Program-made: the position numbers and the translations under genes
Notes under the pieces: generated by a model
Told to the model about the DNA's origin: nothing
Databases searched by the model: none
What the model saw: only the letters and a program-made list of their open reading frames with translations
Source of the DNA: Belliella alkalica
Lineage (GTDB): Bacteria; Bacteroidota; Bacteroidia; Cytophagales; Cyclobacteriaceae
Length of the DNA: 64,000 nt
Reading direction: 5' to 3'
Assembly (NCBI RefSeq): GCF_022549785.1
Contig: NZ_JAKZGO010000017.1
Span: 36,180 to 100,179 of the forward strand
Part shown: positions 25,463 to 63,516 of the stretch, in pieces
Numbering within the stretch: position 1 is the stretch's first letter
How the letters are laid out: each line of letters opens with the position of its first letter

Positions 25463-26357
25463 ATGCTTACATTTTTACAACTTTTTACCATTCTCTTACA
25501 TGCACGTAGGCAATTATTATATTATTGCATAGCCGATTCAAGCTCAGATGTCCATGAAACCAGTGGCAAAGAAAATTAGGTCTATTCCTAGGAGCTATAT
25601 TGATGTGACTTATATTATCAATAGCCACTTGATATAATTCGATTACTTCTAGTGGCTATGTCAACAAAAGTCACCAACTGTTTTTGACCGCATTACATTT
25701 GAACACAAAAAGTACATTTGGTATATGACTATCCGCAAAGACACCTAAAAGTGAATTTTCACATGAAATCATTCAGATAATCATCGGCAGACGAACCGTA
25801 TGCAACAGCGGAATTAAAAGTATGTCCCAAATTATATGTGCATATTGGCCTAAAGTCAGACATGCATAATCTGGTATATGATTATCCGCAATCATGCCAC
25901 TAATCAATTAAACGATTGTTTTTTGGCAAACTGATACTCATTGATATTGGATATTTATTGATATTGGTTCGAAGTTACAGGTTAATTCAATTATTTAGAT
26001 TCTACTGGTATGAAAACGGATATACATAATCTGGTATTTTTGAAATGACTTTTTCAAACAGTATCAAAGTGAATCAAAATGATTAATTTATCATTGATAC
26101 TAATTAAAACTATACTGATTTTCACTAATTCGACATAGTATAATCACCACCAAAAGACATCAATTGAATAAGTTAAAATAGTCCTGTCAAAAAAGTTGAA
26201 TTTTTTATTATTAATAAATTAGTTAATACAATTTTTTATAACTAACTTTTATTTATTAAAACTTAAACTCTCATTAAAGATAGACAAATCACGTTAGAAG
26301 GCACTGTCAATACCAATAGCGGACTTCTAACTTAACATTCAACTAAAAGAAAAAATC
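25463..26357 (+). other. Non-coding, repeat-bearing spacer between the two tonB genes
   Basis: About 0.9 kb without a credible gene in any frame. It contains a 9-bp perfect hairpin (atagccact at 25621-25629 with agtggctat at 25651-25659), a lone 20-base piece (25719-25738) matching the left end of the dispersed 150-bp element with one mismatch, and one full copy of that element (25876-26026) framed by a 13-bp direct repeat. A short open stretch around 25550-25636 codes at most 29 residues and is not recognised. The last 200 bases, just before the second tonB gene, are very AT-rich and presumably hold its promoter, which I could not place. Confidence 0.7.
25876..26026 (+). mobile_element. Dispersed 150-bp MITE-like element, copy A
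   Basis: One of three near-identical copies (others at 54441 and 63366), and the same length (151 bases) as the third. The left end (TATCCGcaaTCATgCCacTA) and the reverse complement of the right end (TATCCGtttTCATaCCagTA) are imperfect terminal inverted repeats of about 25 bases. The core holds GATATTGG-type units. It has no open reading frame. The 13-mer cataatctggtat occurs on both sides (25865-25877 and 26025-26037), as a target duplication might. The mobile nature is inferred; no transposase is present. Confidence 0.65.
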
Positions 26358-27029
26358 ATGGAAATCAAGAAAACACCAAATGCAGACCTATCCACCAAAA
26401 CAGGGATGTTTTTCAATTTAGGCCTAGTTGTCAGCATTTCTCTAGCTCTATTTGCCTTCAATTACAAAGTCTATGATGCTAATGGTACAATTACCCAAAT
26501 ACAACAAAGCAACATTGATGATGAATTACTAGACATACCTATAACAGTTCAAGAGACGCCTCCTCCTCCGCCCATCGAACAGCCCATACTAAAAGAAGTA
26601 CCCAATGAAATAGAAATAGAAAAGATTGAGTTCGTAATTGATGTAGATACAAAAGATGAGTTAGTAATTCAGGATATCGAAATTACAGATACTCCAATCA
26701 TAGAAGATGCTGATGAGATTTTTGAATTTGTGGAATCAGCACCCACACCAGTAGGCGGTATGAGTGCCTGGAATAAGTATCTACAAAAAAACCTCAAATA
26801 TCCGACCCCAGCTAGACGAATGGGGATAGAGGGTACAGTCACAGTTGTCTTTGTGGTAAACACTGACGGCTCCTTGCAAGACATCGAAATTCTAAGAGGT
26901 CTCGATGGAGGATGCAATGAAGAGGCCATTAGGGTTATTAAAAACGCTCCAAGTTGGCAGCCTGGAAAACAAAGAGGAAGGCCAGTCAGAGTTCGAATGA
27001 GAATGCCAATAAAATTCAAATTAGGATAA
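26358..27029 (+). CDS. Energy transducer TonB (paralogue 2)
   Basis: 223 residues with the same plan as the gene at 24749: one membrane span near residues 18-35, a shorter proline run (ETPPPPPIEQP), an acidic linker and a TonB_C domain ending RMRMPIKFKLG. The C-terminal domains of the two differ at only about a quarter of positions, so this is a tandem duplicate that has diverged mainly in the linker. It is separated from the first copy by a terminator and the repeat-bearing spacer, so it must have its own promoter. A strong terminator follows. Confidence 0.92.
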   Translation: MEIKKTPNADLSTKTGMFFNLGLVVSISLALFAFNYKVYDANGTITQIQQSNIDDELLDIPITVQETPPPPPIEQPILKEVPNEIEIEKIEFVIDVDTKDELVIQDIEITDTPIIEDADEIFEFVESAPTPVGGMSAWNKYLQKNLKYPTPARRMGIEGTVTVVFVVNTDGSLQDIEILRGLDGGCNEEAIRVIKNAPSWQPGKQRGRPVRVRMRMPIKFKLG

Positions 27030-27040
27030 ATAAAACAAAA

Positions 27041-27083
27041 AAGAACCCGAGTAAAGTTAAAAAAATACTTTATTCGGGTTCTT
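27041..27083 (+). terminator. Rho-independent terminator after tonB paralogue 2
   Basis: aagaacccgagtaaagt at 27041-27057 pairs with actttattcgggttctt at 27067-27083, 16 of 17 positions, around a short A-rich loop. A long, strong stem 11 bases past the stop; the flanking A and T tracts are short. The rest of the gap to 27340 shows nothing recognisable. Confidence 0.85.
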
Positions 27084-27340
27084 CATTGGAATCAAATCAA
27101 AAAGCCCTAAAAAGACAATTTACAATTCAACTTGCAAAAAACAATTATGGCTCTTTGTTGCGAAATTTAAAGATGTGGTGATATACCACTTGGCCAAAAG
27201 CCATTTAAATTATGTATTAAATATAATTAATGAATCCGTTGACTATTCCGCTACATACAGGTCTCTCCTGTGGACTGTTGACAGTTTCAAGAAATTTAAT
27301 TTGTAGAATTGAATTACAGTTATCATTACGGAAAATCATA

Positions 27341-28219
27341 TTATAATATATTCAGTGCTTGCTCCTTGATTTTTTCAAGTTCATCCTTCATTACAATGAC
27401 ATGCTTTTGAATGCTTGCATCATTTGCTTTGGAACCAATTGTATTGATTTCCCTACCTATTTCTTGACTAATAAAACCTAACTTTTTCCCTTGATTGGTA
27501 TCTTCATCTAAGTTTTTTTGAAAGTAATCTAAGTGAGTACCGAGTCTAACTATTTCTTCAGTGATATCTACTTTCTCGAAGTAATATATCAACTCCTGCT
27601 CAAACCTGTTTTTATCAAAATCATTCTCTTCTAGCCAATCTTTAAAGTTATTTCTAATCCTCTGCCTAATTCGATCTTTCCTAATAGGATCTTCTTTTTC
27701 AACGTTCCTGAGGCCTTCTTTGATAATGCTCAAATTTTCATTGAATTTTTTCTCCAAAACATTTCCTTCATCTGTCCTGAAAGCATCGCACTTTACCAAA
27801 GCTTGCTGAATTACATCTTTGACCACATTCCATTCTTCACCAACAGCAACTTTTTCAGTAGATTGAGTCATCACATTTGGTGATTGGACTGCTAGCTTAA
27901 ACACATCACTAGTGTTGGCCCCGACTAAGTTTGCCATAGCCAAATATCGATGGTAATAACCAGCAAAAAGAGTCTCATCAAACCCAACTGGAAGTTCTTC
28001 TCCTGACTTTCTGCTGAAGTCAATGGAAATATTTACTTTTCCTCTTTCAAGAATAGCACTGACTATATTTCGGATTTCTAGCTCTTTGTCAGAAAACTGT
28101 TTTGGACTTCTAATTGAAAGATCCAGAAATTTTGAATTTAACGTTTTCACTTCTACACTGACAACGAAAGTATCATCTTCAAAACTGGCTAAACCGTAGC
28201 CTGTCATTGATTTAATCAT
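27341..28219 (-). CDS. YicC/YloC family endoribonuclease
   Basis: 292 residues, full family length. It shows the YicC N-terminal signature MIKSMTGYGLASFED, then VEVKTLNSKFLDLSIR, and the DUF1732 C-terminal block with EELIYYFEKVDITEE, LGTHLDYF, GKKLGFISQEIGREINTIGSKANDA. YicC proteins have been characterised as endoribonucleases in E. coli and B. subtilis; the RNA target here is unknown. It begins 19 bases after the stop of the upstream (minus-strand) large outer-membrane gene. gmk, its usual neighbour, is not in the window. Confidence 0.9.
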   Translation of the reverse strand: MIKSMTGYGLASFEDDTFVVSVEVKTLNSKFLDLSIRSPKQFSDKELEIRNIVSAILERGKVNISIDFSRKSGEELPVGFDETLFAGYYHRYLAMANLVGANTSDVFKLAVQSPNVMTQSTEKVAVGEEWNVVKDVIQQALVKCDAFRTDEGNVLEKKFNENLSIIKEGLRNVEKEDPIRKDRIRQRIRNNFKDWLEENDFDKNRFEQELIYYFEKVDITEEIVRLGTHLDYFQKNLDEDTNQGKKLGFISQEIGREINTIGSKANDASIQKHVIVMKDELEKIKEQALNIL

Positions 28220-28238
28220 AAATTAGCAAATAAATAAA

Positions 28239-31200
28239 TTAGAAATTATACCCTAAGGTAACATAAAATTTTAGATCTTGATTTTGATAATTTCTGATCG
28301 GCCTTGCTAAATCAAATTTAACGTAATAATTCAACAGGACTGTTCTAAGTCCAGCACCATAACTTTGAAGCCATGGATTATTAAAATTATTTAGAGTTAT
28401 CAAAAACGGAGAACCCTCTGAATCAATAACTTCTGTATTCTGATCATTGATACGTTCCCAAGGTGGTGAATCATTCCAAGAAGTTCCAACATCATAGAAC
28501 GCTACCAACTGAAAGTTCTTAATAAAATTCGAAGTGATATTTCCTCTTGACAAATATGAAAACAAAGGTATTCTCAACTCCGAAGAAAATGTCACTACAT
28601 TCTTGCCCCTAATTTCATCGTAATCATACCCTCTCAAGTCAACAAATTCAGCAAATAAAATATTGGAGTTTTCAACCCCTCCTGAATTCCTAACTGGCGA
28701 AGCTTCTGGCCTATTCGTAGGTGGCCTATAAAACTGATTGAAAAGCCAGTTATCCATACCTCCGACTAAATATGATTGAGGGTTTTTTCCAAAAAATGAT
28801 CCAGCGAATAACCTCGTTGCAAAAGTGATATTCTTATGGATTTTTTGATAATTCCTTAAATCCAAGTAAGCGTTTGTAAATGACCTTTCTCCAGCATTCA
28901 AACCTTGGTAGTGAACAGCACCTATTTTACCTTTCAATCCCTGCTGCATATACAAGCCAAGCTGCTGGGTTTTATCTACCACAAATTCTACTTTGGCGCC
29001 AGCATAGTTTACATCAAATCTGTTTTGCTCTGGTACAGTCCCCCGCAATATTGAATCAGAATTCAAATTAAAATATTGACTTTTTGCAAAGAATGGTGCT
29101 GCCATGACTCTACTATGGACAGAAAAGGGATATGAAAAACCTAACTCAGCTTTTGTCAAAACGTATTTCTGAAATGTAAGGTCACCTTCTGTTACTTGAA
29201 TCGATCGCCTGTCAAACCTAGCCCTAAGGTCAACTCTTTGTTTGAGGTATTGATAATCGAAGAAAATATCACTGCCTGATCTAAAGTCCAAGGTAGCCAT
29301 TATACCACCTTCAAATAAATGATTCTCAAGTAAATCAGACATTTTACCATTCAAACTTATACCAAAACCTCTGAGAGGATCAACCACAAACGTAGTCTTC
29401 AGGCTGTTTGTGATGAATTGGGGAGTCATTTTTTGTGGCCCAGTGACTGTCTTTCTCAAACTCTGTCTCCTAAAATTATCAAGTAGGCTACTTCTTGCTT
29501 GTAGTTGTGACAAACCTGTAACCGGCTGACTTATCACAGGAATAGTATCAAATGTGTAATTTTCGGTGTCAATACCTCCACGTCTTTCAAACCTTAGCTT
29601 CTCTGTATTGATACTTCCTGTAGTATTCCCTACAATTGGAGGGATACTATCTAGAATTGGTTCTGATACGGTTGTTTGAGGTGCTCTTGTGACCCCTGTG
29701 TTAGTTTGGGGAGTCCTACCTCCTATCATCAGATCTTCCAATCTAATATTCAAAGTTGAATCTCTTTTAACTTCTTCAATCACAATTGGTGCCCTCTGAT
29801 CCTCTGACTGATCATTCCTACCCACTTCTTGTTGTTCTATTCTTCTGGAGCTCAACCTTTCATTTAGCACTTTTGCCTGCTGAATCTGAACCCTCGGAGT
29901 GCTTGGCGTAAATTGATCTGTATTTGTATAAGGTTCCATTACCAATACACTTTGATTACCGTCTCTATAAGAATAGGCAATCCTATTTAGACGAGCAGAG
30001 TAGTCAAATGCCTCAAGACTTTTATTGAATGCGGATACCTGGCTAGCTATAGAGCCATTGACACTCATTCTCATTAAGTTCATGATACCGCTTTGATCGC
30101 TCAAATGTAGTATAAAGTTACCGTTGAGTACGGATGCTTTAATATTCTTATTATTACTATTAGTCAATTTGCTAGTAACTTCTGTAGAATCTGTTATATC
30201 GATTCTAAATAGATTAAAATAATTAGGAAGCTGCCTTACATCAGGGTATCTGGTCAATACAGAATCTGGTAACTCAGTGAAATTAGAGGAAAAAATAATT
30301 GTAGAATCATTTAAAAAAACTGGATCAATATTGTCGAAAACATCATTTGTCAATCGCTTACCTACGCCCCTAACGTTTAGCGAGAATATATCTGTTTTTC
30401 CATTATTAGATATTGCTGAAACAACCATATTCCTTCCTGAAGAATTATAATCGATACTCAAGATCTGGGTAATATTTCTAAGAAATATTTTATCTTGACT
30501 TGATCCATCAATTGCCCTCAAAATCAGAGATGTTGTCCCCCTTTTATAGGAAGCTATTGCCAAATTCAAGGTGTCTTTCCAAGCTATTACAGGACTAGTC
30601 AAGTTGGCAGGCTGATCCGAGGATCTACTTCCACCCGAAAAAATGGTTCTCTCTCTATTATTACTTAGTTCGCGAACTTGTATTTTAAACTTTCCTCCGT
30701 TGTTTATAACATAAGCTAAATGTTTACCATCTGGGCTGAATTTTATATCATTGATAATTCCTAGCTGCGATGACTTCGTTTGGTTGATGACGTTATTTTG
30801 ATTGTAATCTTTAAACGTCGTCAGTACTGGCGCATTGGTTTGAATATAAAACTGTTTCCACTGTTCTCTAAATGCATTATAATTTAACCCTATTGTATTA
30901 GCAATGCTATTTTCTTCATTTCGATTGATCCTACTTAGGTTGAGAATACTTGAAATATATCTTCTCCCATACTTTTCTGAAATGAAATTCCATATAGATT
31001 GACCTACTAATGCAGCTTCTTTTTCCTGTAATCTATGAAATTTGTTTTTCTTTTCATTTTTGAAATAGTGTCTGATATAGTCATCCATTTCCATACTCCA
31101 TCCATGTGCAATATACATTGCAGCACCTTCTATATACCATTCAGGAAAGCTATTTATCAAATTAGACTGAAAAGCATCCGCTATGGTCGATCCATATAGC

Positions 31201-31652
31201 ATTTCTTCAATGATGACTTTAGAAGTGCCATAAACCAACTCCTTTTTGAAACTCTCCCAGTCACCAGTGAAGGCCACTTCACCTAGCAGTTTGCTGAAAA
31301 ATGTTTGACCATCAACAGTAAAATCATCTTTATTGAGGTTTAGATTACTTTGCAATAACTCTTCAGGGGAGTTATATATAAAAATCTTTGGTTTGGTATA
31401 AGCTACGTAACCTATTACCTGAGTCAATCTATCAAATTCATTTTCCAAATAATCAATCGCCATACGGGCATTGGTTACACCTCCATCATAGTAGTAGACC
31501 TCAAAATTATTGGAACTGAATAGATACCACTCTATATTTTTATGTTGAATTCTGTTTTTACCAAACCTTTCTTGATCAAATTGAGCAATAGACTTTATGG
31601 CAGGCAAAGTAAGCCCTATAAGGAGTGTTAAGTAGAAAATTCTTTTTTTCAT
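28239..31652 (-). CDS. Large TolB-like propeller plus outer-membrane beta-barrel protein
   Basis: 1137 residues with a signal peptide (to about 23, KSIAQFD). Residues 30-270 resemble the peptidase-MA fold (PEWYIEGAAMYIAHG aligns with its EWLSEGLA-type segment), but the HExxH zinc motif is absent. Residues 290-620 carry PD40/TolB propeller blades (IKFSPDGKHLAYV). A polar linker of about 100 residues follows, then a C-terminal part rich in amphipathic strands ending LGYNF, with a terminal aromatic as in BAM substrates. It is probably an outer-membrane protein with a periplasmic or surface propeller. Databases usually call such proteins TolB-like; the role is unknown. Confidence 0.8.
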   Translation of the reverse strand: MKKRIFYLTLLIGLTLPAIKSIAQFDQERFGKNRIQHKNIEWYLFSSNNFEVYYYDGGVTNARMAIDYLENEFDRLTQVIGYVAYTKPKIFIYNSPEELLQSNLNLNKDDFTVDGQTFFSKLLGEVAFTGDWESFKKELVYGTSKVIIEEMLYGSTIADAFQSNLINSFPEWYIEGAAMYIAHGWSMEMDDYIRHYFKNEKKNKFHRLQEKEAALVGQSIWNFISEKYGRRYISSILNLSRINRNEENSIANTIGLNYNAFREQWKQFYIQTNAPVLTTFKDYNQNNVINQTKSSQLGIINDIKFSPDGKHLAYVINNGGKFKIQVRELSNNRERTIFSGGSRSSDQPANLTSPVIAWKDTLNLAIASYKRGTTSLILRAIDGSSQDKIFLRNITQILSIDYNSSGRNMVVSAISNNGKTDIFSLNVRGVGKRLTNDVFDNIDPVFLNDSTIIFSSNFTELPDSVLTRYPDVRQLPNYFNLFRIDITDSTEVTSKLTNSNNKNIKASVLNGNFILHLSDQSGIMNLMRMSVNGSIASQVSAFNKSLEAFDYSARLNRIAYSYRDGNQSVLVMEPYTNTDQFTPSTPRVQIQQAKVLNERLSSRRIEQQEVGRNDQSEDQRAPIVIEEVKRDSTLNIRLEDLMIGGRTPQTNTGVTRAPQTTVSEPILDSIPPIVGNTTGSINTEKLRFERRGGIDTENYTFDTIPVISQPVTGLSQLQARSSLLDNFRRQSLRKTVTGPQKMTPQFITNSLKTTFVVDPLRGFGISLNGKMSDLLENHLFEGGIMATLDFRSGSDIFFDYQYLKQRVDLRARFDRRSIQVTEGDLTFQKYVLTKAELGFSYPFSVHSRVMAAPFFAKSQYFNLNSDSILRGTVPEQNRFDVNYAGAKVEFVVDKTQQLGLYMQQGLKGKIGAVHYQGLNAGERSFTNAYLDLRNYQKIHKNITFATRLFAGSFFGKNPQSYLVGGMDNWLFNQFYRPPTNRPEASPVRNSGGVENSNILFAEFVDLRGYDYDEIRGKNVVTFSSELRIPLFSYLSRGNITSNFIKNFQLVAFYDVGTSWNDSPPWERINDQNTEVIDSEGSPFLITLNNFNNPWLQSYGAGLRTVLLNYYVKFDLARPIRNYQNQDLKFYVTLGYNF

Positions 31653-31673
31653 TAGTTAAAGATAACTTACGTT

Positions 31674-32726
31674 TTAAATATACTTAAAAAAACGACTTAT
31701 ATTAACATCAATATGGGGTTGATTTTGATTTACTAATAAATCAAACATCATTTTACTATAGTATGGTATCAAGGAAACACCTTTAGCTCCAAAACCATTG
31801 AAGATGTAAACGCAATCATGGTCAGGATGTTTACCTAACATCGGTCTCCTATCTTTTGTTGCGGGCCTTACGCCAGATTTATGTACGACGAGTTTTTTGT
31901 TTTGGATTTTCATCAGATTATCCAATCTATCATACAGTTCATTTTTTGCTCTTTCAGTGGGCCCTTCATCCAAATCATGCCATGAATAAGTGGATCCTAC
32001 CCTTACCAGACCATTTTCTAAAGCAATCCTGAAAACACCCCTATTTATAATTTCCTTGGGATGAAATTCTTGTTCTAAATCCAATATTTCACCTTTGACC
32101 GGAGAGAATGGAAGATATTTGAAAAAGGCACTTTTCATAGCGCCCAAACCATTACAGTACACTATGCCTCTAGCTTCAATATCTCTGTAGGTAATTTTTC
32201 CATCACCAAAACCCAATTCATTTTCTTCAAATGATTCTTCTAGCAGAAAATCCTTCTCTAAAAGGAATTTAGAATAAACATCTAGCAGAGTATTTATATC
32301 CAAATAGCCCGACTGTGCCAGCATTACTCCACCATGTTCATTTACAACTTCCTCAAAAAGACTTTTAGTATGAATTTTTTCTAAATAAGTTTGGAATTTT
32401 GAATCACTACTATTGCCCATCCATTCATTTTGTTCCTCTACAGATAAAAAAGGTCTATATATCGGCTTTTTAAAAAGAAAATTCGTCCCAAACTCTTGCT
32501 CCATTGTCTCATACAGCGGCTCTATTTCTGGAAACAACAAATCTGCGTTCCAAGTCTTTACCATCTTGCGTCCCGTAAGAGGATTATACAATCCAGCAGC
32601 TACCCTACTACTATTATTTGACTCGGGCTGATCTATTACCAAAACAGAATAGCCCGATTTGATCAACCTATATGACAATACTGTGCCTGCCAATCCTTGT
32701 CCAATGAGTAAAAAATCTACTTCCAT
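31674..32726 (-). CDS. FAD-dependent oxidoreductase (DAO family)
   Basis: 350 residues from the ATG at 32726 (MEVDFLLIGQGLAGTVLSY), with the dinucleotide-binding GxGxxG at residues 9-14 and a C-terminal DAO signature (RPATKDRRPMLGKHP, then IFNGFGAKGVSLIPY). It resembles the glycine/D-amino-acid oxidase group; the related C-terminal domain of MnmC is another possibility, since NPLTGRK near the N-terminus is of that kind. A TTG start six bases earlier is less likely. It is divergent from the MBL gene with only 58 bases between. Confidence 0.82.
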   Translation of the reverse strand: MEVDFLLIGQGLAGTVLSYRLIKSGYSVLVIDQPESNNSSRVAAGLYNPLTGRKMVKTWNADLLFPEIEPLYETMEQEFGTNFLFKKPIYRPFLSVEEQNEWMGNSSDSKFQTYLEKIHTKSLFEEVVNEHGGVMLAQSGYLDINTLLDVYSKFLLEKDFLLEESFEENELGFGDGKITYRDIEARGIVYCNGLGAMKSAFFKYLPFSPVKGEILDLEQEFHPKEIINRGVFRIALENGLVRVGSTYSWHDLDEGPTERAKNELYDRLDNLMKIQNKKLVVHKSGVRPATKDRRPMLGKHPDHDCVYIFNGFGAKGVSLIPYYSKMMFDLLVNQNQPHIDVNISRFFKYI

Positions 32727-32784
32727 GCCCAAAAATAAATTCTTTATTCGTTATTTTGATACTTTCAAGAAAATGTTTCCCAAT

Positions 32785-52795: not shown

Positions 52796-53833
52796 ATGGA
52801 AACAATAGCCAAATTGGTAGAAAAAGATATATACTCAATGATGGAGTCAAAATATTATTATCTGGTTGAATTAGACAAAAACGGAAAAGTAAATAATACC
52901 AATATCAGACTAAAAAACATATTTACATCCGTAGAGACCCCATTGATAGGCCAATCTTTTGGTGAGATATTATTTCCCAATGATTTTTTGAATTTCCAAA
53001 ACTCACATCGGATTGCTATGGAGGAGAATTCTACTAATTTTCAGATTGATCTTAGAAAAGTAAATGAAGACAATTCAGACTTTCATTGGACGCGTTGGGA
53101 GTTTACAATCACACGTAAAGAAAATTCGGATTTTACTATAATGGGAATTGGACACGATATTTTGAAAATCAATGAGAAAATAATAGAATTTCCCGAGTTT
53201 ATATATGAACATCAAATCAAAAACGAAATCATGGAAGGTCTATTTGAGGACAACCTGATAGGTTTTTGGCTTTGGGATATAGAAAACGAAAATGACCAAC
53301 TAAGTGTTTCGCTACGTACAATGTTAGGCTATGATAATACCTCAAAGGATAAAAAAGAAGTGAAATGGAAAAAACATATTCACATCCAAGATAAAGAGAA
53401 AGTAAATCAGCATTTGGAAGAACACTTCAGTAGTTTTGGAGAAACCCCATTCCACAGTGAACTGAGAATACTTTCCTTATCTGGAAAAGAAATATGGTCT
53501 ATCGCATATGGTAAAGTTGTAAAGTGGGATGAAGATGGTAAACCTTTGAATATGATAGGATGTTTTTTTGATATTTCTGAAAAAAAGAAATCAGAAATCA
53601 TCTTAGACAAACAAAACAAATTTCTTAGAGAACTTACTTTCAACCAATCTCATATGATGCGTTCAAAATTGGCAAATATTATGGGCATACTGGAAGTTAT
53701 TCAGCCAAGACAAAACCAAGAAGAATTAGATCAACTTTTGAGCCTACTGAAAGAAGAGGCTTACAAATTGGATAAGGCCCTACAAGATAGCATTCATTCT
53801 TCAAGTGCTTTGAATTCAAGCAAGACTAACTAA
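52796..53833 (+). CDS. Tandem PAS protein with a histidine-kinase-like DHp end but no ATPase
   Basis: 345 residues, no membrane span. Two PAS folds are seen: about 15-125 (KYYYLVELDKNGKVNNTNIRLK, IGQSFGEILFP) and about 145-265 with a PAC segment (NDQLSVSLRTMLGYDN, ELRILSLSGKEIW...GCFFDISEKKKSE). The last 75 residues look like the dimerisation helices of a Bacteroidota histidine kinase, with an H-box-like SHMMRSKLANIMGIL. The gene stops before any N, G1 or G2 ATP-binding box. It could accept a phosphate from another kinase, or be a truncated kinase. It converges with the DUF2911 gene, overlapping by 4 bases. Confidence 0.8.
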   Translation: METIAKLVEKDIYSMMESKYYYLVELDKNGKVNNTNIRLKNIFTSVETPLIGQSFGEILFPNDFLNFQNSHRIAMEENSTNFQIDLRKVNEDNSDFHWTRWEFTITRKENSDFTIMGIGHDILKINEKIIEFPEFIYEHQIKNEIMEGLFEDNLIGFWLWDIENENDQLSVSLRTMLGYDNTSKDKKEVKWKKHIHIQDKEKVNQHLEEHFSSFGETPFHSELRILSLSGKEIWSIAYGKVVKWDEDGKPLNMIGCFFDISEKKKSEIILDKQNKFLRELTFNQSHMMRSKLANIMGILEVIQPRQNQEELDQLLSLLKEEAYKLDKALQDSIHSSSALNSSKTN

Positions 53834-54423
53834 TTATTAATACTTAAATTGATCACAAAGCTTCTTTCTGCCCAACTGAATTTCAATTCTCCAGTCTGTG
53901 CGTCTTTGCTGATTACTTCAAACTTCAATTGTTCAACCTGATCGGCAGATGGAATATTTTCAACTTCAATTCTCAACACATCTTCTGTTTGGTCATAATC
54001 GTCTGCCAAATGCTGCTCGTAATTTGAATTCAAGATGACTGTCCAACCATTTTCTTTTGGTATAGTAAACAAGGCATATTTCCCAGCTGGGGCTGACTCT
54101 CCTTCAATGATCAAATCTTCATTAAAAGAAATACTTGTAGCTGAATGCGCTCCTGTCACCCATACTTCATCATAAGCCACCAAGCCTCCAAAAACCTGCC
54201 GTCCTCTTACACTCGGGGCAGAATAATCGACATGGACATGGTTGGAACCGATATTAGCCATGGCTGCGGTTCGGGGACTTTTTGAATTTGCAGCTTCAGA
54301 TGTTGCTCCATGGTCATGATGGGCATGCCCGTTTGATTCCTCTACTTTGCCCTCTTCCTTATTTGAAGAACAAGAAAGGATAATCATTGAAGAAAGGATG
54401 ATTAGATAATTTTTGGTTTTCAT
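53830..54423 (-). CDS. DUF2911 lipoprotein with His-rich N-terminus
   Basis: 197 residues. The signal ends with a lipobox (IILSC, C18). The mature start is polar with clustered histidines (H33, H35, H36, H38 in GHAHHDHG), suggestive of metal binding. The DUF2911 domain follows: SPRTAAMANIGSNHVHVDYSAPSVRGRQVFGG, EVWVTGAHSATSISF, GKYALFTIP. The function is unknown. It is the last gene in the metal-efflux direction of transcription, 233 bases after the adaptor gene, but a repeat element lies between and may supply or break transcription. Confidence 0.85.
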   Translation of the reverse strand: MKTKNYLIILSSMIILSCSSNKEEGKVEESNGHAHHDHGATSEAANSKSPRTAAMANIGSNHVHVDYSAPSVRGRQVFGGLVAYDEVWVTGAHSATSISFNEDLIIEGESAPAGKYALFTIPKENGWTVILNSNYEQHLADDYDQTEDVLRIEVENIPSADQVEQLKFEVISKDAQTGELKFSWAERSFVINLSINN

Positions 54424-54440: not shown

Positions 54441-54590
54441 ATACGATTATTCGAAATCATGCCACTAATCAATTAAACTAGGATTTATTGGCAAATGGAT
54501 ACTAATAGATATTGGATAATTATTGATATTGGTTCGAAATCATAGGTTAATTCTATTATTTAGATTCTACCGGTATGAAAGCGGATATAA
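54441..54590 (+). mobile_element. Dispersed 150-bp MITE-like element, copy B
   Basis: Aligned end to end with the copies at 25876 and 63366 and in the same orientation. It is the most diverged of the three, with changes mainly around 54477-54500 and at the ends. The imperfect terminal inverted repeat is retained (TTCGaaaTCATgCCacTA at the left, CCggTATGA at the right). It begins 18 bases upstream of the DUF2911 start codon and has no open frame. Confidence 0.62.
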
Positions 54591-54597
54591 GTATTAG

Positions 54598-54652
54598 GAT
54601 ATTGGAATTTCTTACCATATATCCCAATATCTATAAATATCAATAAGTATCA
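54598..54652. repeat. GATATTGG-type repeats after the adaptor gene
   Basis: ggatattgg near 54598-54606 and cccaatatct at 54623-54632 form an inverted pair, and aaatatcaataagtatca follows. It is directly downstream of the minus-strand adaptor stop codon and could act as a weak terminator hairpin. Confidence 0.6.
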
Positions 54653-54655
54653 TTT

Positions 54656-56419: not shown

Positions 56420-56460
56420 TGTATCTTATTCAAAATATTTGAAGTTCTTATTTTAAGGGT

Positions 56461-56590
56461 AGATATTGATGGATATTGGATATTTTTTGATATTTTGCTA
56501 GCATCTACCATTTTCATTTGAACTTATCCAAAACCAATATCTACCGATATCAAATAGTATCTTTAATATCAACCAATATCCACCAATATC
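56461..56590. repeat. Inverted arrays of GATATTGG-like units between channel and adaptor genes
   Basis: Units in one sense (agatattgatggatattgg..., 56461-56497) face units in the opposite sense (ccaatatctaccgatatc..., 56534-56590) across about 36 bases. They fill the whole gap between the TolC-like stop and the adaptor start. Transcribed, this would form a long imperfect hairpin. Confidence 0.7.
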
Positions 56591-56593
56591 ATT

Positions 56594-58117
56594 TCAAATC
56601 CCTATTAACGTTTCAACCCTGGCAAACTGAATTTCCCTTTCAATTTTTGTATTCAGCAAATTCAACCGGAAGTCTAGGAGTTCACGTTGAATATTGAGTA
56701 CTTCCTCAAAGGAACTTCCTTCGTTGGCATATGATGTGACTGATAGTTCCATGGTCTGCTTGGTGAGTTCTATCTGCTCTTCCAAAAGAGTGACTTTCCT
56801 GGTTGCATCTTTGATGGAAACAAGGATGCTTTCAAACTCTGTTTCCAGAGTTCTTTGAAGGTCTTCTTTCTGCTTTTCGTTAGCTTCCCAATAGAGTTTG
56901 GATTCTGATTCCATGGCTTTGTATTTTTTACGGTAAATCGGCAATGATACAGTAGCCATAGGCATCACCATATTGTTTCCCATGCCTGCGGGCATATAGT
57001 CCATGCCATTCATTCCACCGGGGGCACCCATTTCAGGTCTAGGAGAAAAGACCATATAGTTCAAGCCCAACCCAAACATAGGTTTCCCCTCTAATTTGGC
57101 CATCTCACCTTGTTTTTGGTAAACCAAACCTTCTTTTTCCAGCATGAGCAACATAGGGTTGGTTTCTAAAATCTGCTCAAGCATGGTGAATTCCCAACCT
57201 ATATTTTTTTGGGTAGAAATTTCCGTCTCAAATTCCAAAGGCTCGTTTTTATCTCGTCCCAAAAGTTGGTTGAAGCGAACTAAAAATGGCCGCTTATCCA
57301 CTTCCAATTGCTGCAAATCACTTTCCAAGGCCTTGATCTGTACTTGCAAGCGCAGTACATCTGTCAATTTGCCTGATCCCCCACCTGATCCCATACTGGA
57401 CATGGCAGAGCCCCCTGAGGAGGAAGCCCCCGAGGAGGATGAAGAACTGCCTCCTCCCATGCCCATGCCATCACTTCCGCCGTTCTGCTGACCTGAGCGG
57501 GTAGGCCTTCTTACAGCGGCCGAAACAGATGAAACTGCATCCGATGTATTTCCTCCTTGGTAACGGATGATCGCCAACTCCTCCAAGGACTTCAATATAT
57601 CCAAATTGGATTCTGTAATTTCAATGCTATTCTGCAATTGCTGTAACTGGAAGTAAGTCTCCTTTACCTGGTACAGGAGCACATTTCGCTGCTGTCTAAA
57701 CTCCTCGTATTTGGCTTCTGCCATCAAAGTCGCTTCATCCTTTTGTGTTTTCAGCATCCCAAACCATGGAAACATCTGCATCACCGAAGCCTCCGCCCGC
57801 TGATTCCCCATCAACAACTCCATTGGCCTTGTGAAGACTCCAATGTTTAATTGAGGGTTTTCAAGGGTGACTTGATTTGTTTTTTCCAAAGAAGCCTGAT
57901 ATCCTTTAAATGAAGCTTGAAGGGCAGGATTGTTCTCAGCAGCTTCTTCGAGATATTGATCTAGGGATTGGGAATACCCATTAACACTAACCATAAAAAT
58001 CAGAATTAATAGATATTGGTAGATACTTGATATTGATAGATATTGTTTGGGAATACAAACCATTCTTCCACTATTAGCAATGGCCCTTTTATTCGTTATT
58101 TTTAAAAGAGTTTTCAT
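56594..58117 (-). CDS. TolC-like outer-membrane channel (CusC role)
   Basis: 507 residues, outer-membrane factor family. The conserved start of the mature part is SLDQYLEEAAENNPALQASFKGYQ, and periplasmic helices run to the end (SFEEVLNIQRELLDFRLNLLN). Two odd parts: residues about 190-250 are a Gly/Ser/Met low-complexity insert (GMGMGGGSSSSSSG), and a Met/Gly-rich loop near 370-385 (MNGMDYMPAGMGNNMVMPM) may bind metal. The signal region is unusual: codons about 25-38 (QYLSISSIYQYLLI) consist of the GATATTGG repeat read in frame. An internal ATG at 58063 could be the real start. It overlaps the four-helix-bundle gene by 4 bases (ATGA). Confidence 0.9.
   Translation of the reverse strand: MKTLLKITNKRAIANSGRMVCIPKQYLSISSIYQYLLILIFMVSVNGYSQSLDQYLEEAAENNPALQASFKGYQASLEKTNQVTLENPQLNIGVFTRPMELLMGNQRAEASVMQMFPWFGMLKTQKDEATLMAEAKYEEFRQQRNVLLYQVKETYFQLQQLQNSIEITESNLDILKSLEELAIIRYQGGNTSDAVSSVSAAVRRPTRSGQQNGGSDGMGMGGGSSSSSSGASSSGGSAMSSMGSGGGSGKLTDVLRLQVQIKALESDLQQLEVDKRPFLVRFNQLLGRDKNEPLEFETEISTQKNIGWEFTMLEQILETNPMLLMLEKEGLVYQKQGEMAKLEGKPMFGLGLNYMVFSPRPEMGAPGGMNGMDYMPAGMGNNMVMPMATVSLPIYRKKYKAMESESKLYWEANEKQKEDLQRTLETEFESILVSIKDATRKVTLLEEQIELTKQTMELSVTSYANEGSSFEEVLNIQRELLDFRLNLLNTKIEREIQFARVETLIGI
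58005..58046. repeat. GATATTGG-type repeat inside the TolC-like signal region
   Basis: Units agatattggtagatacttga and tattgatagatattg at 58010-58045 match those in the non-coding gaps. Here they are within an open reading frame and encode part of the hydrophobic signal segment. Confidence 0.7.
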
Positions 58118-58506
58118 TTCAATTCTTTTTTTGAATTGTAAATAGATTTAATGTAATTGTTCAGTTTAAGAGATAATGTGTCTGAAACTGATTTAACCTC
58201 CAAAAACTCCTCCTTTGTAATAATTTCTCTTTCCAGCATAAGACTTAACCAATGATTGATCGATTCAAACATTGAACCTCTACTATTGTATAAAAATCTA
58301 ACCCTATCTAAATAGTGGTAGCGTCCATAAGACTCCGCAATATTTGCTCCTATAGAATCGGTAGACTCAATAAACTGATCGCCAATAATTTTTCGATTTT
58401 GCCAAGTCATTTTTGAATATATTACCCAAGCGAGCTTCGAAAGCTCTCTAGCCAATTTATAGACCTCTAGATCCTCTAATTTTATATAACCCTTTTTATC
58501 TTCCAT
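58114..58506 (-). CDS. Four-helix-bundle protein (23S rRNA IVS/S23 family)
   Basis: 130 residues from the ATG at 58506 (MEDKKGYIKLEDLEVYKLA); a TTG seven codons upstream is possible. The family signatures are seen: LEVYKLARELSKLAW, DQFIESTDSIGANIAESYGRYHYLDRVRFLYNSRGSMFESINHWL. Members form small pentameric alpha bundles. Some are encoded in 23S rRNA intervening sequences; others (Avd) accompany diversity-generating retroelements. No reverse transcriptase is present here. It sits between the RND pump and channel genes, its stop overlapping the channel start, and is flanked by oppositely oriented repeat arrays. Its role in efflux, if any, is unknown. Confidence 0.88.
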   Translation of the reverse strand: MEDKKGYIKLEDLEVYKLARELSKLAWVIYSKMTWQNRKIIGDQFIESTDSIGANIAESYGRYHYLDRVRFLYNSRGSMFESINHWLSLMLEREIITKEEFLEVKSVSDTLSLKLNNYIKSIYNSKKELK

Positions 58507-58532
58507 AATATCAAATTTTTCTACCAAACAAC

Positions 58533-58690
58533 TGATTACTAAACCAATATCAAGAAATATCTAACCCACCTCCCGAAGGGCAGGTATCTATTAATATCTT
58601 TTTAAGATCCTCAATCCCTTTCCCAAAACCAACCAAACGACTGATATCAAGACCAATATCTACCAATATCAAATATCAACTAATATCAAA
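58533..58690. repeat. CCAATATC-type repeat arrays between pump and four-helix-bundle genes
   Basis: Two groups of units (58541-58606 and 58641-58689; e.g. accaatatctaccaatatc) in the opposite sense to the array at 58005. Between them is a small symmetry, acctcccgaagggcaggt (58567-58584), like a terminator stem. They fill the gap between the pump stop and the next gene. Confidence 0.7.
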
Positions 58691-58693
58691 ATC

Positions 58694-61600
58694 CTAATTT
58701 TTACCAACTTGAAACTCCTTAAATTTCCCATAAAGCACCGGAACAATAAACAGTGAAATCAATGCCACGGTCATCCCCCCAAAAGCTGGAATAGCCATTG
58801 GGATCATGATGTCAGAACCTCTTCCTGAACTTGTGAGAACTGGCAATAGAGCCAATAAAGTAGTAGCTGAGGTCATCAGACAGGGCCTTACTCTTTTCAG
58901 GCCAGCTTCCAAAACTGCTTTTCGGACTTCCTTGACATTCTCAGGCTGGATTCTTTCAAAACTTTGTTTCAAGTATGTACCCATCACAACCCCATCATCT
59001 GTGGCAATACCAAAGAGGGCAATGAAACCTACCCAAACTGCCACAGAAAGGTTGAATGTCCGCATTTGAAAGAGTTCCCGCATGTTGGTTCCCATGAAAC
59101 TGAAATCAAAGAACCAACCCTGACCATATAACCAAAGCATCAGAAAACCTCCCGAAAAGGCCATGGCTATGGCTGAGAAAATCATCAAGACCATGGCAGT
59201 AGACCTGAACTGCAAATACAAGATCAAGAAGATCACCGCTAATGAAAGGGGAATGACAATGGCCAATCGTTTTTCAGCGCGGATTTGATTTTCATAGCTT
59301 CCAGAGAAGGTATAGGAGACTCCTGCCGGCACTTCCAATTCTCCAGAATTTATCTTCTTTATAATAAAATCCTTGGCATTATCCACTACGGTTCCTTCGG
59401 CAAAACCATCTCTTTTATCAAACAGGACATAGCCCACCAAGAAGGTATTTTCGCCTCGAATCATCATCGGACCTGGACGGTAGTTGATTTCTGCCAATTG
59501 ACCCAAAGGAATCTGAGCACCTGTGGGTGTGCTGACCAAAATTCGTCTCAAAGCCTCAGGATCGTCCCTGTATTCCCTCGCATACCTCGCCCTGATGGCA
59601 TACCGCTCCCTTCCTTCTACTGTAGTACTCAGCGTCATTCCTCCAATAGCCACTTCTATAAATTCCTGCACATCGGCAATATTCAGCCCGTACCTACCCA
59701 ATTGGGTTCTATCCAGATCGATTTCCATATATGGCTTACCTAGGGATCGGTCAGCAAATACTGCCTCAGATTTGACTGAAGGTACTTCTTTGAGCAGTGA
59801 TTCCAGTTTGAGACTGAAATTCTCAATTGTCTCCAAATCTGGCCCATAGACTTTCATACCCATTGGCGCTCGCATCCCTGTCTGCAACATCACCAATCGG
59901 GTTTCGATAGGCTGTAGCTTTGGCGCAGAAGTTACTCCAGGAAGGTTTGAAGTACGGATTTGTATTTCATCCCAGATATCATCTGGCGTTTGGATTTCAT
60001 CCCTCCATTGACGGAAGTATTGTCCTTTTCTTTCATCGGAAACCAAGTATTTGGAAATATTTCGAGTTATTGCCCTTCTTTGGGCTTCTTCCATGTAATT
60101 CTTGTCATCATCCCAAATGGCACCATCGCTACGATCATACCACCAGTATTTATCATTGACCAGTACCTGATAATTGCCGTCTCTATTGACCTTGAACCTG
60201 AGTTTGCGGGCATCATCATCTTGCAGGTACTCGGTTTTGTAATTGATGATGTTTTCGTACATGGACATAGGCGCCGGATCCAATGGGCTCTCTGCTCTTC
60301 CAGCTTTTCCAACCACCATTTCCACTTCAGGAATCGCCTGAACCAGCATATCCAGTTGCTTCACTATCTGCATATTGGCCTCCACACCTGAATGTGGCAT
60401 AGAAGTCGGCATCAATAGAAAAGACCCCTCGTTCAATGCAGGCATAAACTCTTTGCCCATCCCCGGAAGTGCATGTGTAAGTCCAGACCAAACAGAAGTA
60501 GTCCGTATATTCCAGCCTACTTGGTCAAAACCCTTGGCGACAAAGCCAAAAATGCTATTGAACCCTAACCAGACATTTGCGGCAAAGAGAATGATCAATG
60601 CAGGAAGCAAAAGAAATACCCTCGCATGCTCCAGGCACCATTTCAACATGTGGGCATAGAAGCGGATAAATAAAGAGAAAAGTCCCAAAACCAAACCCAA
60701 GACTAAGGCAATGAAAAGAAAATTCACAAATACTGATTGCGTCAGTCCTAATGGCCTCCATTCAAAAGCCAGTAAAACGGAAACAGCCACGACAGCAATC
60801 AACATGGCTATCTGATTTTTATATTTCCCGTTTTGTGTCTGCTTTGGAAAGAAATGATGGATCAATTGATTGGCTGCAAAGGCCAACAAAACCCATCCTG
60901 CCCAAGGGAAATAGAACAACAAAATCAAGCCAGCAAAAGCCATCAGGAAATTGAGGATTGTTCTGTAATTTTTAGATTTGACTTTGGCTCCAAAAACCCA
61001 ATGGGCAAAGGCTGGCATAAATACCAAAGTGAAAATCAAAGCCGCTATCAAAGCGAAAGTCTTGGTGTAAGCCAAAGGACCGAAAAGTTTGCCTTCTGCC
61101 GCTTGGAGCGTGAATACAGGTAAGAAACTCACAATCGTAGTCATCACTGCAGTCAGGATTGCCGAACTCACTTCAGTAGTAGCTTCATATATTATCTGAA
61201 GTTTGGTTTTTTTATCCCCTGATTCTTCGAGATGGCGGAGAATATTTTCATTTAGAATAATCCCCAAATCCACCATTGTTCCAATGGCAATGGCAATCCC
61301 TGAAAGTGCCACAATATTGGCATCCACGCCCACATACTTCATCATGATAAAGCACATCAAAACAGCCAAAGGCAGAAGTGCAGAAATCAAGAGGGAAGCC
61401 CTGAGGTTATACACCATCACCATGATCACAATAATGGTAATCAGGATTTGAAGACTGATGGCTTCATTGAGGGTGCTCAAGGTTTCTTTTATCAGACCCG
61501 AACGATCATAAAAAGGCACTATGGTCACTTTAGAAACCGTACCATCTTCCAGAGTTTTGGTAGGAAGACCTGGAGAGATCTCTTCAATTTTGGCTTTGAT

Positions 61601-62563
61601 GGCATCGATGACTTGTAAAGGATTGTCTCCGTATCGGGCCACCACTACCCCACCTACTGCTTCCGCACCTCCTTTGTCCAATATTGCTCTTTCAGCACGG
61701 CTTGCAGGCCCGATGTTGACTTTGGCGATGTCTTTGATGCGCAAGGGAACGTTGTTGCTCACTTTTACCACGGCTTTTTCGATATCCTCCAGAGACTTCA
61801 CATAGCCCAGTCCACGGACGATAAACTCCACCTGATTAATTTCCATGGTATTGGCACCAATGTCCAGATTGGATTGCTTGATGGCGTTCATTACCTGCAT
61901 CATGGAGACATTGTGGGCTTTCATGGCTACAGGATCGAGGTCAACTTGGTATTCCTTCACATGACCGCCGATGCTGGCCACTTCTGCGACACCTTCTGTA
62001 CCCGCCAATCCATAGCGCACATAGTAATCTTGGATACTTCTGAGTTCGTGCAAATCCCATCCACCTGCCGGATTACCATTTTCATCTCTGCCTTCAAGCG
62101 TATAAAAGTACACCTGTCCCAATCCGGTTGCATCCGGTCCAAGTTTGGGTTGAACACCCTCGGGAAGGAGCCCTGATGGCAAAGAGTTGAGTTTTTCCAG
62201 AATCCTTGACCGGCTCCAGTAAAACTCTATTTCCTCTTCGAAGATGATATAGATGGAAGAAAAGCCAAACATAGAAGTGCTTCGGATGGATTTCACCCCA
62301 GGCATACCAAGTAGTGAAGTAGTCAAAGGATAGGTAATCTGATCTTCGACATCCTGAGGAGAACGTCCCATCCAATCGGTAAAGACGATCTGCTGGTTTT
62401 CCCCGATATCTGGAATGGCATCTACTGGTACAGGGTCGTTGGGCAGGAAGCCAGTGTTCCAGTTGAATGGAGCAGTCACTATCCCCCATGCCACTACAAG
62501 GACGAGTAGTATGACTGTGACCAGTTTATTTTCGAGAAAGAATTTTATTGTTTTATTAAGCAT
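58694..62563 (-). CDS. CusA/CzcA-family heavy-metal RND efflux pump
   Basis: The proton-driven inner-membrane pump of a tripartite exporter. 1289 residues from the ATG at 62563 (MLNKTIKFFLENKLV); a TTG 45 bases upstream adds no family sequence. RND features: DWMGRSPQDVEDQITYPLTTSLLGMPGVKSIRSTS, a charged TM4 (GTMVDLGIILNENILRHLEE), and GIATDDGVVMGTYL near the end. MLQTGMRAPMGMKVYGPD and FLLMPTSMPHSG are Met-rich where CusA carries its copper path, favouring Cu(I)/Ag(I). It is about 240 residues longer than E. coli CusA, with extra hydrophobic segments near 540-690 and an insert near 790-860. Confidence 0.93.
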   Translation of the reverse strand: MLNKTIKFFLENKLVTVILLVLVVAWGIVTAPFNWNTGFLPNDPVPVDAIPDIGENQQIVFTDWMGRSPQDVEDQITYPLTTSLLGMPGVKSIRSTSMFGFSSIYIIFEEEIEFYWSRSRILEKLNSLPSGLLPEGVQPKLGPDATGLGQVYFYTLEGRDENGNPAGGWDLHELRSIQDYYVRYGLAGTEGVAEVASIGGHVKEYQVDLDPVAMKAHNVSMMQVMNAIKQSNLDIGANTMEINQVEFIVRGLGYVKSLEDIEKAVVKVSNNVPLRIKDIAKVNIGPASRAERAILDKGGAEAVGGVVVARYGDNPLQVIDAIKAKIEEISPGLPTKTLEDGTVSKVTIVPFYDRSGLIKETLSTLNEAISLQILITIIVIMVMVYNLRASLLISALLPLAVLMCFIMMKYVGVDANIVALSGIAIAIGTMVDLGIILNENILRHLEESGDKKTKLQIIYEATTEVSSAILTAVMTTIVSFLPVFTLQAAEGKLFGPLAYTKTFALIAALIFTLVFMPAFAHWVFGAKVKSKNYRTILNFLMAFAGLILLFYFPWAGWVLLAFAANQLIHHFFPKQTQNGKYKNQIAMLIAVVAVSVLLAFEWRPLGLTQSVFVNFLFIALVLGLVLGLFSLFIRFYAHMLKWCLEHARVFLLLPALIILFAANVWLGFNSIFGFVAKGFDQVGWNIRTTSVWSGLTHALPGMGKEFMPALNEGSFLLMPTSMPHSGVEANMQIVKQLDMLVQAIPEVEMVVGKAGRAESPLDPAPMSMYENIINYKTEYLQDDDARKLRFKVNRDGNYQVLVNDKYWWYDRSDGAIWDDDKNYMEEAQRRAITRNISKYLVSDERKGQYFRQWRDEIQTPDDIWDEIQIRTSNLPGVTSAPKLQPIETRLVMLQTGMRAPMGMKVYGPDLETIENFSLKLESLLKEVPSVKSEAVFADRSLGKPYMEIDLDRTQLGRYGLNIADVQEFIEVAIGGMTLSTTVEGRERYAIRARYAREYRDDPEALRRILVSTPTGAQIPLGQLAEINYRPGPMMIRGENTFLVGYVLFDKRDGFAEGTVVDNAKDFIIKKINSGELEVPAGVSYTFSGSYENQIRAEKRLAIVIPLSLAVIFLILYLQFRSTAMVLMIFSAIAMAFSGGFLMLWLYGQGWFFDFSFMGTNMRELFQMRTFNLSVAVWVGFIALFGIATDDGVVMGTYLKQSFERIQPENVKEVRKAVLEAGLKRVRPCLMTSATTLLALLPVLTSSGRGSDIMIPMAIPAFGGMTVALISLFIVPVLYGKFKEFQVGKN

Positions 62564-62617
62564 AGTTTCTGAAACTAACTTTTCTTTAATCTGAAATACT
62601 TCATTCAAGTAGAAACA

Positions 62618-62652
62618 GATATTTATGGATACTAGATATTATTGGATATTAC
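62618..62652. repeat. GATATTGG-type repeat upstream of the pump gene
   Basis: agatatttatggatact then agatattattggatatta: three to four degenerate units about 55 bases before the pump start codon, so within its leader or promoter region. Confidence 0.6.
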
Positions 62653-62707
62653 TGACTAGCAGCAAGCCTTAAACTAAAATTTGAAAGGAGATAAAAGATT
62701 GGGGAAT

Positions 62708-62740
62708 AGACCTGTCAGGTTTTGAAAACCTGACAGGTCT
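62708..62740. repeat. 33-bp perfect palindrome
   Basis: agacctgtcaggtttt at 62708-62723, one central G, then its exact reverse complement to 62740. It lies in the gap between the HYC_CC_PP stop and the pump start, so it may terminate or attenuate transcription. The sequence resembles dispersed palindromes common in Bacteroidota gaps and the arm of the terminator at 49191. Confidence 0.8.
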
Positions 62741-62851
62741 TCAACCTTTAAATCCTTCAAAATTTACTCTTCATCAAGAAGAAAATTCTAATTCTCTTTG
62801 AGCCTTAGTGACTTTGTGGTAATTCAAACCACACTCATTAGAAAGAAAAAA

Positions 62852-63232
62852 TCATATCAGGAATACCTGACAAAAAATATAAATCGGTGTATTTTGTAAT
62901 GTTGGAGGTGAGGAATCAGCAAAAGTTGTCACCTCTTTATCATTGTTCCTTACTTTGAACAATTCCGTATTAAAGGCCAAATCTACATAATCAAAACCAA
63001 AAGGTTGAAAATTCAAAACTGTAGAGAGTTGCTGTTCAGTATTCGGAAGTTCCAAATTGGAAATGTCATCACAACAACCTTGCATGGGAGTATTGGACTC
63101 ACAGCAGGTTTTGTATTCAGCAAAAACATTGATCCTTTGGAAGTCATCTCCACAGAAATGCATGGAATAGCTCAGCCCTGCGTTAAAAAACACATAGAAT
63201 GCAAGGAGTGCTATTTTGATAAATGACTTCAC
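62852..63232 (-). CDS. HYC_CC_PP family small secreted Cys-rich protein
   Basis: 126 residues. A signal-like N-terminus (about 5-22) is followed by the family motifs: HFCGD (H25, C27), CC at 43-44, CC at 53-54, and SSPP at about 107-110, with an aromatic end. The named family (HYC...CC...PP) is Bacteroidota-specific and is often found before RND metal-efflux operons, as here. The spaced His/Cys residues suggest periplasmic metal binding or sensing, by inference. It is first in the direction of transcription, 288 bases before the pump gene. Confidence 0.82.
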   Translation of the reverse strand: MKSFIKIALLAFYVFFNAGLSYSMHFCGDDFQRINVFAEYKTCCESNTPMQGCCDDISNLELPNTEQQLSTVLNFQPFGFDYVDLAFNTELFKVRNNDKEVTTFADSSPPTLQNTPIYIFCQVFLI

Positions 63233-63249
63233 GATTGATTAATACGAAA

Positions 63250-63257
63250 CAAAGATA
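63250..63257 (-). promoter_or_regulatory. Likely -7 element for the HYC_CC_PP/efflux genes
   Basis: On the minus strand TATCTTTG, a full match to TAnnTTTG, 17 bases before the start codon. The -33 region shows only a TTTA-like partial match. Confidence 0.45.
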
Positions 63258-63365
63258 CTAAAGTTGTGAGAAGTAAATGTATAAAATTTATGTTGGATTT
63301 TATACAGAATGGTTAAATGAGCAAATTATCACGATTTAACTATTAATGTATTTAAATAAAAAAAA

Positions 63366-63516
63366 ATATGATTATCCGCAATCATGCCATTAATCAATTA
63401 AACGATTGTTTTTTGGCAAACTGATACTAATAGATATTGGATATTTATTGATATTGGTTCGAAATCACAGGCTATTTCAATTATTTAGATTCTACTGGTA
63501 TGAAAACGGATATACA
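63366..63516 (+). mobile_element. Dispersed 150-bp MITE-like element, copy C
   Basis: 151 bases, nearly identical to copy A (25876) with roughly ten differences and in the same orientation. It has the same imperfect terminal inverted repeats and GATATTGG core, with no open frame. It lies 134 bases upstream of the HYC_CC_PP start, i.e. at the promoter side of the efflux cluster. The flanks are A-rich and show no clear direct repeat. Confidence 0.65.

Follow-up and report, generated by a model that had tools for sequence, protein, structure and literature searches.

The 64,000-nucleotide stretch of Belliella alkalica DNA analysed here (the window) carries three copies of family A, a family of 152-bp MITEs with ends of the IS1595 type and target duplications of 8 bp. 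Judging from sequence comparison, this family was very probably mobilised in trans by a transposase of the IS1595 family. The initial annotation had described three copies of about 150 bp aligning end to end in one orientation, and all of them are present, without internal gaps. The copies were correctly placed, but their ends had to be moved by 1–3 bases to the boundaries that give the target duplication, each copy then spanning 152 bp. The features of the window are as follows:

25716–25723, no strand: outer 8-bp array box ATTTGGTA, 7/8 identical to the next box
25724–25868, + strand: degenerate older MITE, 145 bp, from a different family, standing first in the array; left end exactly TATGNNTATCCGC, right end with 3 mismatches
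25869–25876, no strand: target duplication of 8 bp (ATCTGGTA) on the left side of copy 1, which also serves the neighbouring MITE as its right box
25877–26028, + strand: family A copy 1 (locus L018), 152 bp, 0.026 from the copy consensus
25933–25967, + strand: core of copy 1, corresponding to that of copy 3
26029–26036, no strand: target duplication of 8 bp (ATCTGGTA) on the right side of copy 1
54442–54593, + strand: family A copy 2, the most decayed window copy, target duplication not clear
54498–54532, + strand: core of copy 2, corresponding to that of copy 3
63367–63518, + strand: family A copy 3, 152 bp, target A-rich
63367–63393, + strand: left terminal inverted repeat of copy 3, matching the end of sister-species IS1595 elements
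63423–63457, + strand: core of copy 3, with four GATATT-like boxes in two units of 17 bp
63492–63518, – strand: right terminal inverted repeat of copy 3

The terminal inverted repeats, rightly called imperfect in the initial annotation, are about 26 bp long (TATGATTATCCGCAATCATGCCACTA vs. TATGTATATCCGTTTTCATACCAGTA). The short consensus is non-coding, with at least one stop in each of the six frames, in agreement with the earlier remark that no reading frame survives. At least 36 near-full copies are present in the host assembly, a count that is a lower bound, 40 of the 120 first-look candidates having been scored. Since the 35 near-full matches found besides the query have E values from 4.0e-70 to 2.0e-45, chance is ruled out as the source of the family. 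Mean pairwise identity is 0.939; among the 33 copies of consensus length three are identical to the consensus, and copy 2, at 0.112 from it, is the most decayed. The search of the genome and its relatives proposed earlier thus returned many more copies, including relatives in related genera recovered by a BLAST-like search. No ORF of at least 70 aa shares more than 20 bases with any of the 36 copies.

Target duplications of 8 bp are exact in 21 of the 36 copies, against 0.62 on average and at most 4 in 1000 shuffles, and any other duplication length from 4 to 15 is exact in at most 3 of the same copies. At fixed boundaries, 10/36 copies have duplications matching at fewer than 7 of 8 positions. 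The targets are rich in A+T and show a weak consensus. In the window, the flanks of copy 2 match at 4/8 positions and those of copy 3 at 6/8 (AAAAAAAA / AAAAATTA). What looked like a repeat of 13 bp at copy 1, CATAATCTGGTAT, was rejected, being the 8-bp duplication extended by chance matches between the flank and the element end.

Comparison with 1.785 Mb of Belliella calami provided the empty sites that the initial annotation had suggested looking for in sister strains. A match longer than 200 bases was found in the compared part for 16 of the 36 host loci; L001, L008, L018, L023 and L103 were excluded (single flank, paralogue matches or rearrangement). Among the 11 sites alignable on both flanks, the element is absent from B. 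calami at eight, shared at two and replaced by a different MITE at one. The eight lacking sites include three with diverged targets (L002, L019 and L029, the last with an extra host stretch of about 440 bases) and one at which a second element is also missing (L105), and one of the two shared sites is rearranged on its left side (L009). At the remaining site, an identical 8-bp target is occupied by family A in the host and by a different MITE family in B. calami, with no array. A second apparent replacement of this kind (B. calami contig C43, position 362272, vs. host contig C29) was rejected: the targets differ and lie about 20 bp apart.

The candidate partner was found in the sister species. 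Three IS1595-family elements of about 1040 bp (1040–1042) with ends matching family A and with target duplications of 8 bp, which are a hallmark of the IS1595 family, occur in B. calami (L071), Belliella G001 (L069) and B. buryatensis (L065); the duplications are 8/8 in L065 and L069 and 6/8 in L071. By profile matches, the B. calami transposase belongs to the IS1595 family (NCBIfam NF033547, 181.3 bits against a cut-off of 75; Pfam PF12762, 74.9, and PF12760, 26.2). The family A ends agree with this IS type at 42–43 of 50 sites (23 and 20 per 25-site end) and with four other IS end types at 36–39. In searches, the matches between family A and the IS copies are confined to the ends, so simple loss of the interior from the IS copies compared does not account for family A. 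The genus has further MITE families, many of them likewise about 152 bp long, which fit other IS1595 end types; family E (L253), scored against the IS end types, has a best match of 43. The earlier proposal to look for an IS sharing the 25-base ends was productive, and the MITE reading now has the copy number, the empty sites of B. calami and an IS with such ends behind it.

The host assembly, a draft of 105 contigs from which an IS may be missing, gave no match to PF12762, the IS1595 catalytic domain, and a protein search for the transposase returned three short and weak matches. Because the catalytic domain is missing from the assembly, family A looks orphaned in its host. The proposed pairing with IS1595 is drawn from the similarity of ends between species, the partner being absent from the host assembly. 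Several observations speak against this pairing. The family A ends differ from the IS ends at some sites, and among the three IS copies of the matching type the gene is open in B. calami only (it has one internal stop in G001 and is split over two frames in B. buryatensis), yet just four near-full family A copies are present there.

Other origins of the repeats are far less probable. A non-coding RNA, or a regulatory element acting as RNA, conserved at fixed places beside genes would agree with the folding of a single copy, which is better than that of shuffled sequence (z –3.14 on the + strand, –2.59 on the – strand), with the inverted ends and core hairpin preserved in 18 aligned copies, and with the intergenic position of the copies by a simple ORF call, copy 2 lying 18 bp upstream of the start of ORF 53830–54423 (–). 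However, inverted ends alone predict hairpins, the covariation term amounts to –0.06 of –7.47 kcal/mol, changes on both sides are seen in 3 of 24 pairs of the 18 aligned copies, and a search of Rfam gave no family at the copies. The neighbouring genes occur in every arrangement (13 – –, 8 + +, 7 + –, 7 – + and 1 open among the 36 copies). The initial annotation had named constant orthologous places with conserved RNA structure, or a lack of further copies, as arguments against mobility; what we found is a family of many copies, unshared with B. calami at most of the alignable sites, with almost no covariation. With the 8-bp duplications added, a structured RNA is largely refuted and very improbable. 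Still less credible is a palindromic element of the REP/RAYT or attC type, dispersed by an enzyme that leaves its target unduplicated: short length, inverted ends, intergenic location and high copy number would suit it, but the 8-bp duplications reject it, and the sister species have an IS1595 transposase whose element ends match those of family A.

Returning to the MITE reading, copy 1 follows another MITE in an array of two, and the three 8-bp boxes that flank and separate them are almost identical (ATTTGGTA/ATCTGGTA/ATCTGGTA). Arrays of this form occur repeatedly, and one includes an IS. In a sample of 2.195 Mb chosen independently of the arrays, the gaps between facing ends of neighbours (50 pairs, gaps 0–60) peak at 8 bp with 6 pairs, followed by four at 9 bp and at most three at any other gap. 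At 14 junctions with a gap of 8, three boxes match at 7/8 or better in seven, only two boxes in five and none in two. The array, the 8-bp duplication, the IS1595 identity and the absence of the transposase from the host assembly all go beyond the initial annotation.

The arrays may be explained in different ways while the elements remain MITEs. It is quite conceivable, at somewhat less than even chances, that they mark sequence hotspots hit independently, with no targeting of occupied sites; the single target holding different families in the two species without an array and the weak consensus of the A+T-rich targets fit this explanation, while the peak of gaps at 8 bp and the half of the gap-8 junctions with three agreeing boxes argue against it. 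A more speculative suggestion, which we consider rather unlikely as a whole, is that the IS1595 group seeks targets occupied by relatives: the transposase would recognise a resident end with its 8-bp duplication and insert the next element in those 8 bp, building arrays in which different MITE families, and even the IS itself, have a single duplicated target in common, while the GATATT core of families A and E would be a conserved putative protein-binding site keeping gene-free 152-bp elements transposable.

This core comprises 35 bp (element positions 57–91), consisting of two 17-bp units with four GATATT-like boxes. Across genera no other part of the element is so well conserved: 27 of the 35 positions do not vary among 12 sequences. 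The alignment holds 18 family A copies from several genera (L266 replacing L260, which has a small insertion); six rows recruited by the exact core pattern were excluded from the conservation count, and the remaining relatives came from the BLAST-like search, which may favour the core too. The search of a plasmid collection gave no records, and that of a viral collection with the exact core pattern gave no contigs.

We suppose that the transposase would have attached to the inverted termini and linked the element to a target staggered by 8 bp in A+T-rich sequence between genes, that a target already holding a relative may sometimes have been reused, giving arrays in which target duplications alternate with elements (TSD–element–TSD–element–TSD), and that a later loss of the IS in the host lineage would have left the family an orphan.

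Several MITE families are thus tied to different IS1595 end types within one bacterial genus. Belliella species range from many IS1595 genes to none, which makes the birth, spread and orphaning of MITEs traceable by species. One-target arrays make the target choice of the IS1595 transposase directly testable, and the fixed length and conserved core raise the question of the internal needs of a gene-less MITE.

An IS1595-linked MITE has already been published, and the unusual features here are the same-target arrays and the core. Among the literature matches listed, in which subscription journals are thinly covered, there was neither an IS1595 MITE in Bacteroidota nor bacterial MITEs with one common duplicated target; a tandem IS–MITE insertion is described for Pseudomonas syringae (PMC3189936). 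The Belliella IS1595 elements share the ends and the 8-bp duplication of family A and differ in their length and in having a transposase gene (intact in L071 only). The published MITE of Haloquadratum walsbyi (ISHwa6 type; PMC3852290) has 165 bp, 25-bp inverted ends, an 8-bp duplication and 7 copies; family A is likewise short, with inverted ends, an 8-bp duplication and an IS1595 partner. The two are likened by description, and in contrast to the archaeal element family A has at least 36 copies, belongs to Bacteroidota and has no partner in the assembly. BrickBuilt and MITEPgRS/MITE464 of Porphyromonas gingivalis (PMC4596501) are also Bacteroidota MITEs with short internal tandem repeats; they have IS5-type ends, repeats of 23 or 41 nt and irregular duplications (BrickBuilt), whereas family A combines IS1595-type ends with a fixed core of two 17-bp units and 8-bp duplications.

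The three window copies claimed in the initial annotation do exist, align with internal gaps of zero and belong to family A (152 bp, termini TATG..ATA). A genome-wide search raises the number in the host (4.95 Mb, 105 contigs) to at least 36 near-full elements, with fragments in addition; the figure is a minimum, since just 40 of the 120 initial candidates were scored. Mean pairwise identity within the family is 0.939; 33 copies have the consensus length, three of them being identical to the consensus, and shorter copies (135–145 bp) are found. None of the 36 overlaps an ORF of at least 70 aa by more than 20 bases, and the adjoining genes show every arrangement. Matches were also obtained in relatives, namely in six of eight Belliella genomes and in 10 of the 59 genomes searched (host counted in both), some via one end or the core alone. 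The exact core pattern occurs in 23 stretches on named contigs, the carriers being Belliella calami, B. pelovolcani, B. kenyensis and B. buryatensis and, outside the genus, Arthrospiribacter ruber, Mongoliibacter ruber, a Mongoliibacter sp. and Indibacter alkaliphilus.

With the boundaries set at TATG..ATA (152 bp), 21 of 36 copies have the same 8-mer on both flanks and 26 have flanking 8-mers that agree in at least seven bases. Shuffled flanks (n = 1000) yield 0.62 exact pairs on average and never more than 4; any other duplication length from 4 to 15 gives at most three exact copies. Empty sites, which the initial annotation had proposed to look for in sister strains, were found in a sister species, B. 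calami. In the 1.785 Mb of B. calami fetched (out of about 4.7 Mb), 16 of the 36 loci were matched, 11 with both flanks in order, and eight of these 11 lack the element. A single target copy, exact or one base off, stands at L014, L024, L028 and L106, the targets have diverged at L002, L019 and L029, and at L105 the neighbouring element is absent as well. The element is common to both species at two sites (L007 and L009), and at L026 a single 8-bp target (ATATTTAA versus ATATTTGA) holds MITEs of different families in the two species:
B. calami, G002 C43:167613-167749, a different 137-bp MITE
host, G000 C29:225028-225179, family A

An IS sharing the ends, likewise on that annotation's list of checks, was reached through isolated end matches in sister genomes, which belong to elements of about 1040 bp encoding an IS1595 transposase (NF033547, 181.3 bits; PF12762 and PF12760 also matched). 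Their 8-bp duplications agree at 8/8 positions in L065 (B. buryatensis), 8/8 in L069 (Belliella genome G001) and 6/8 in L071 (B. calami). The transposase gene is open in one of the three, that of B. calami; the G001 copy has an internal stop and the B. buryatensis copy is split over two frames. Among the eight Belliella genomes examined, the IS1595 catalytic domain is present in six and absent from the host and B. kenyensis. Since this domain is absent from the host, where a protein search gave three short and weak matches, family A looks orphaned there, within the limits of the draft assembly.

The host contains 106 and B. calami 147 instances of the 13-base end pattern TATGNNTATCCGC; its reversed control matches neither genome. 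Inverted end pairs no more than 260 bp apart number 38 in 1.77 Mb of B. calami (16 of exactly 152 bp, 24 of 151–154 bp, nine of 137–146 bp) and sort into several MITE families. When five IS end types were scored over 50 end sites, alpha was best for families A (43) and B (44), beta for D (47), gamma for E (43) and delta for C2 (39; runner-up 36) and, weakly, for C (41; runner-up 40). We infer that each family is mobilised by the IS type of matching ends. B. buryatensis carries a separate family of about 154 bp (L061, L062, L063, L064, L066, L067), its copies closely similar and with ends of the same kind. In other families (e.g., B. calami C11:120365 and C11:112872), the GATATT core is replaced by an inverted end copy, GCGGATA.T.GTC, near the element middle.

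Two 17-bp units, together bearing four GATATT-like boxes, make up the family A core (positions 57–91). Conservation was counted in 12 sequences picked without use of the core motif, four of them close copies from the host or B. calami. Invariant positions number 27 of 35 in the core, compared with 10/27 and 12/27 at the ends and 8/29 and 13/34 in the stretches between; with three close copies removed, the values are 28/35 versus 13/27, 15/27, 9/29 and 14/34. An alignment of 18 copies, drawn from Belliella, Arthrospiribacter, Mongoliibacter and Indibacter, spans 152 gapless columns, one copy carrying an insertion being omitted. Family E has the same core at offset 56–57 (56 in A). Allowing one mismatch, the four-box motif has 59 sites in the host, MITE-internal ones counted, and 82 in B. 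kenyensis, with none in 48 of 59 genomes and none for the reversed control. The core could, speculatively, be a protein-binding site. A single copy tested against shuffled sequence folds better, and an outer stem and core hairpin are kept across the 18 aligned copies, but the covariation term is −0.06 of −7.47 kcal/mol; inverted ends plus an invariant core would yield such a result unaided.

Four-box repeats with the 17-bp period also lie outside the three window MITEs and may be a separate dispersed repeat, of which a longer array occupies host C62:187473-187573:
window 56462-56494, four-box repeat
window 58012-58044, four-box repeat
window 58655-58687, four-box repeat
window 62618-62650, four-box repeat

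Some elements share a target in arrays. Ahead of window copy 1 (25877-26028) lies a degenerate MITE of 145 bp, and the three target boxes of 8 bp are ATTTGGTA, ATCTGGTA and ATCTGGTA. Mutually similar genes, called TonB-like by sequence appearance, lie on both sides:
window 24749-25423, TonB-like gene
window 26358-27029, TonB-like gene
Over 2.195 Mb picked regardless of arrays (window, host C29 and B. calami contigs), the commonest spacing between the facing ends of adjacent elements is 8 bp (6 of 50 gaps of 0–60 bp; four at 9 bp, at most three at any other). A larger set, to which places selected for their arrays contribute, has 39 junctions with gaps of 0–20 bp, 14 of them at 8 bp. Among these 14, the three boxes agree in at least 7/8 bases in seven, only two agree in five, and none in two. 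One of the seven, L069, is an array of IS1595 and a MITE with TTAAATTA three times. An apparent triple MITE array was seen in L301 (13917-14374; host C17), where boxes 1–3 agree (ATAAATAA, ATAAATAA, TTAAATAA) and box 4 does not. The transposase may seek occupied sites, or one hotspot may be hit twice.

Earlier reports describe an IS1595-linked MITE of Haloquadratum walsbyi (165 bp, 8-bp duplications; PMC3852290) and MITEs containing internal minisatellites in P. gingivalis (PMC4596501); a term search of the main text of a 2024 prokaryotic-MITE review gave no mention of IS1595. Family A is therefore a new family of a published type, the IS1595-linked MITE.
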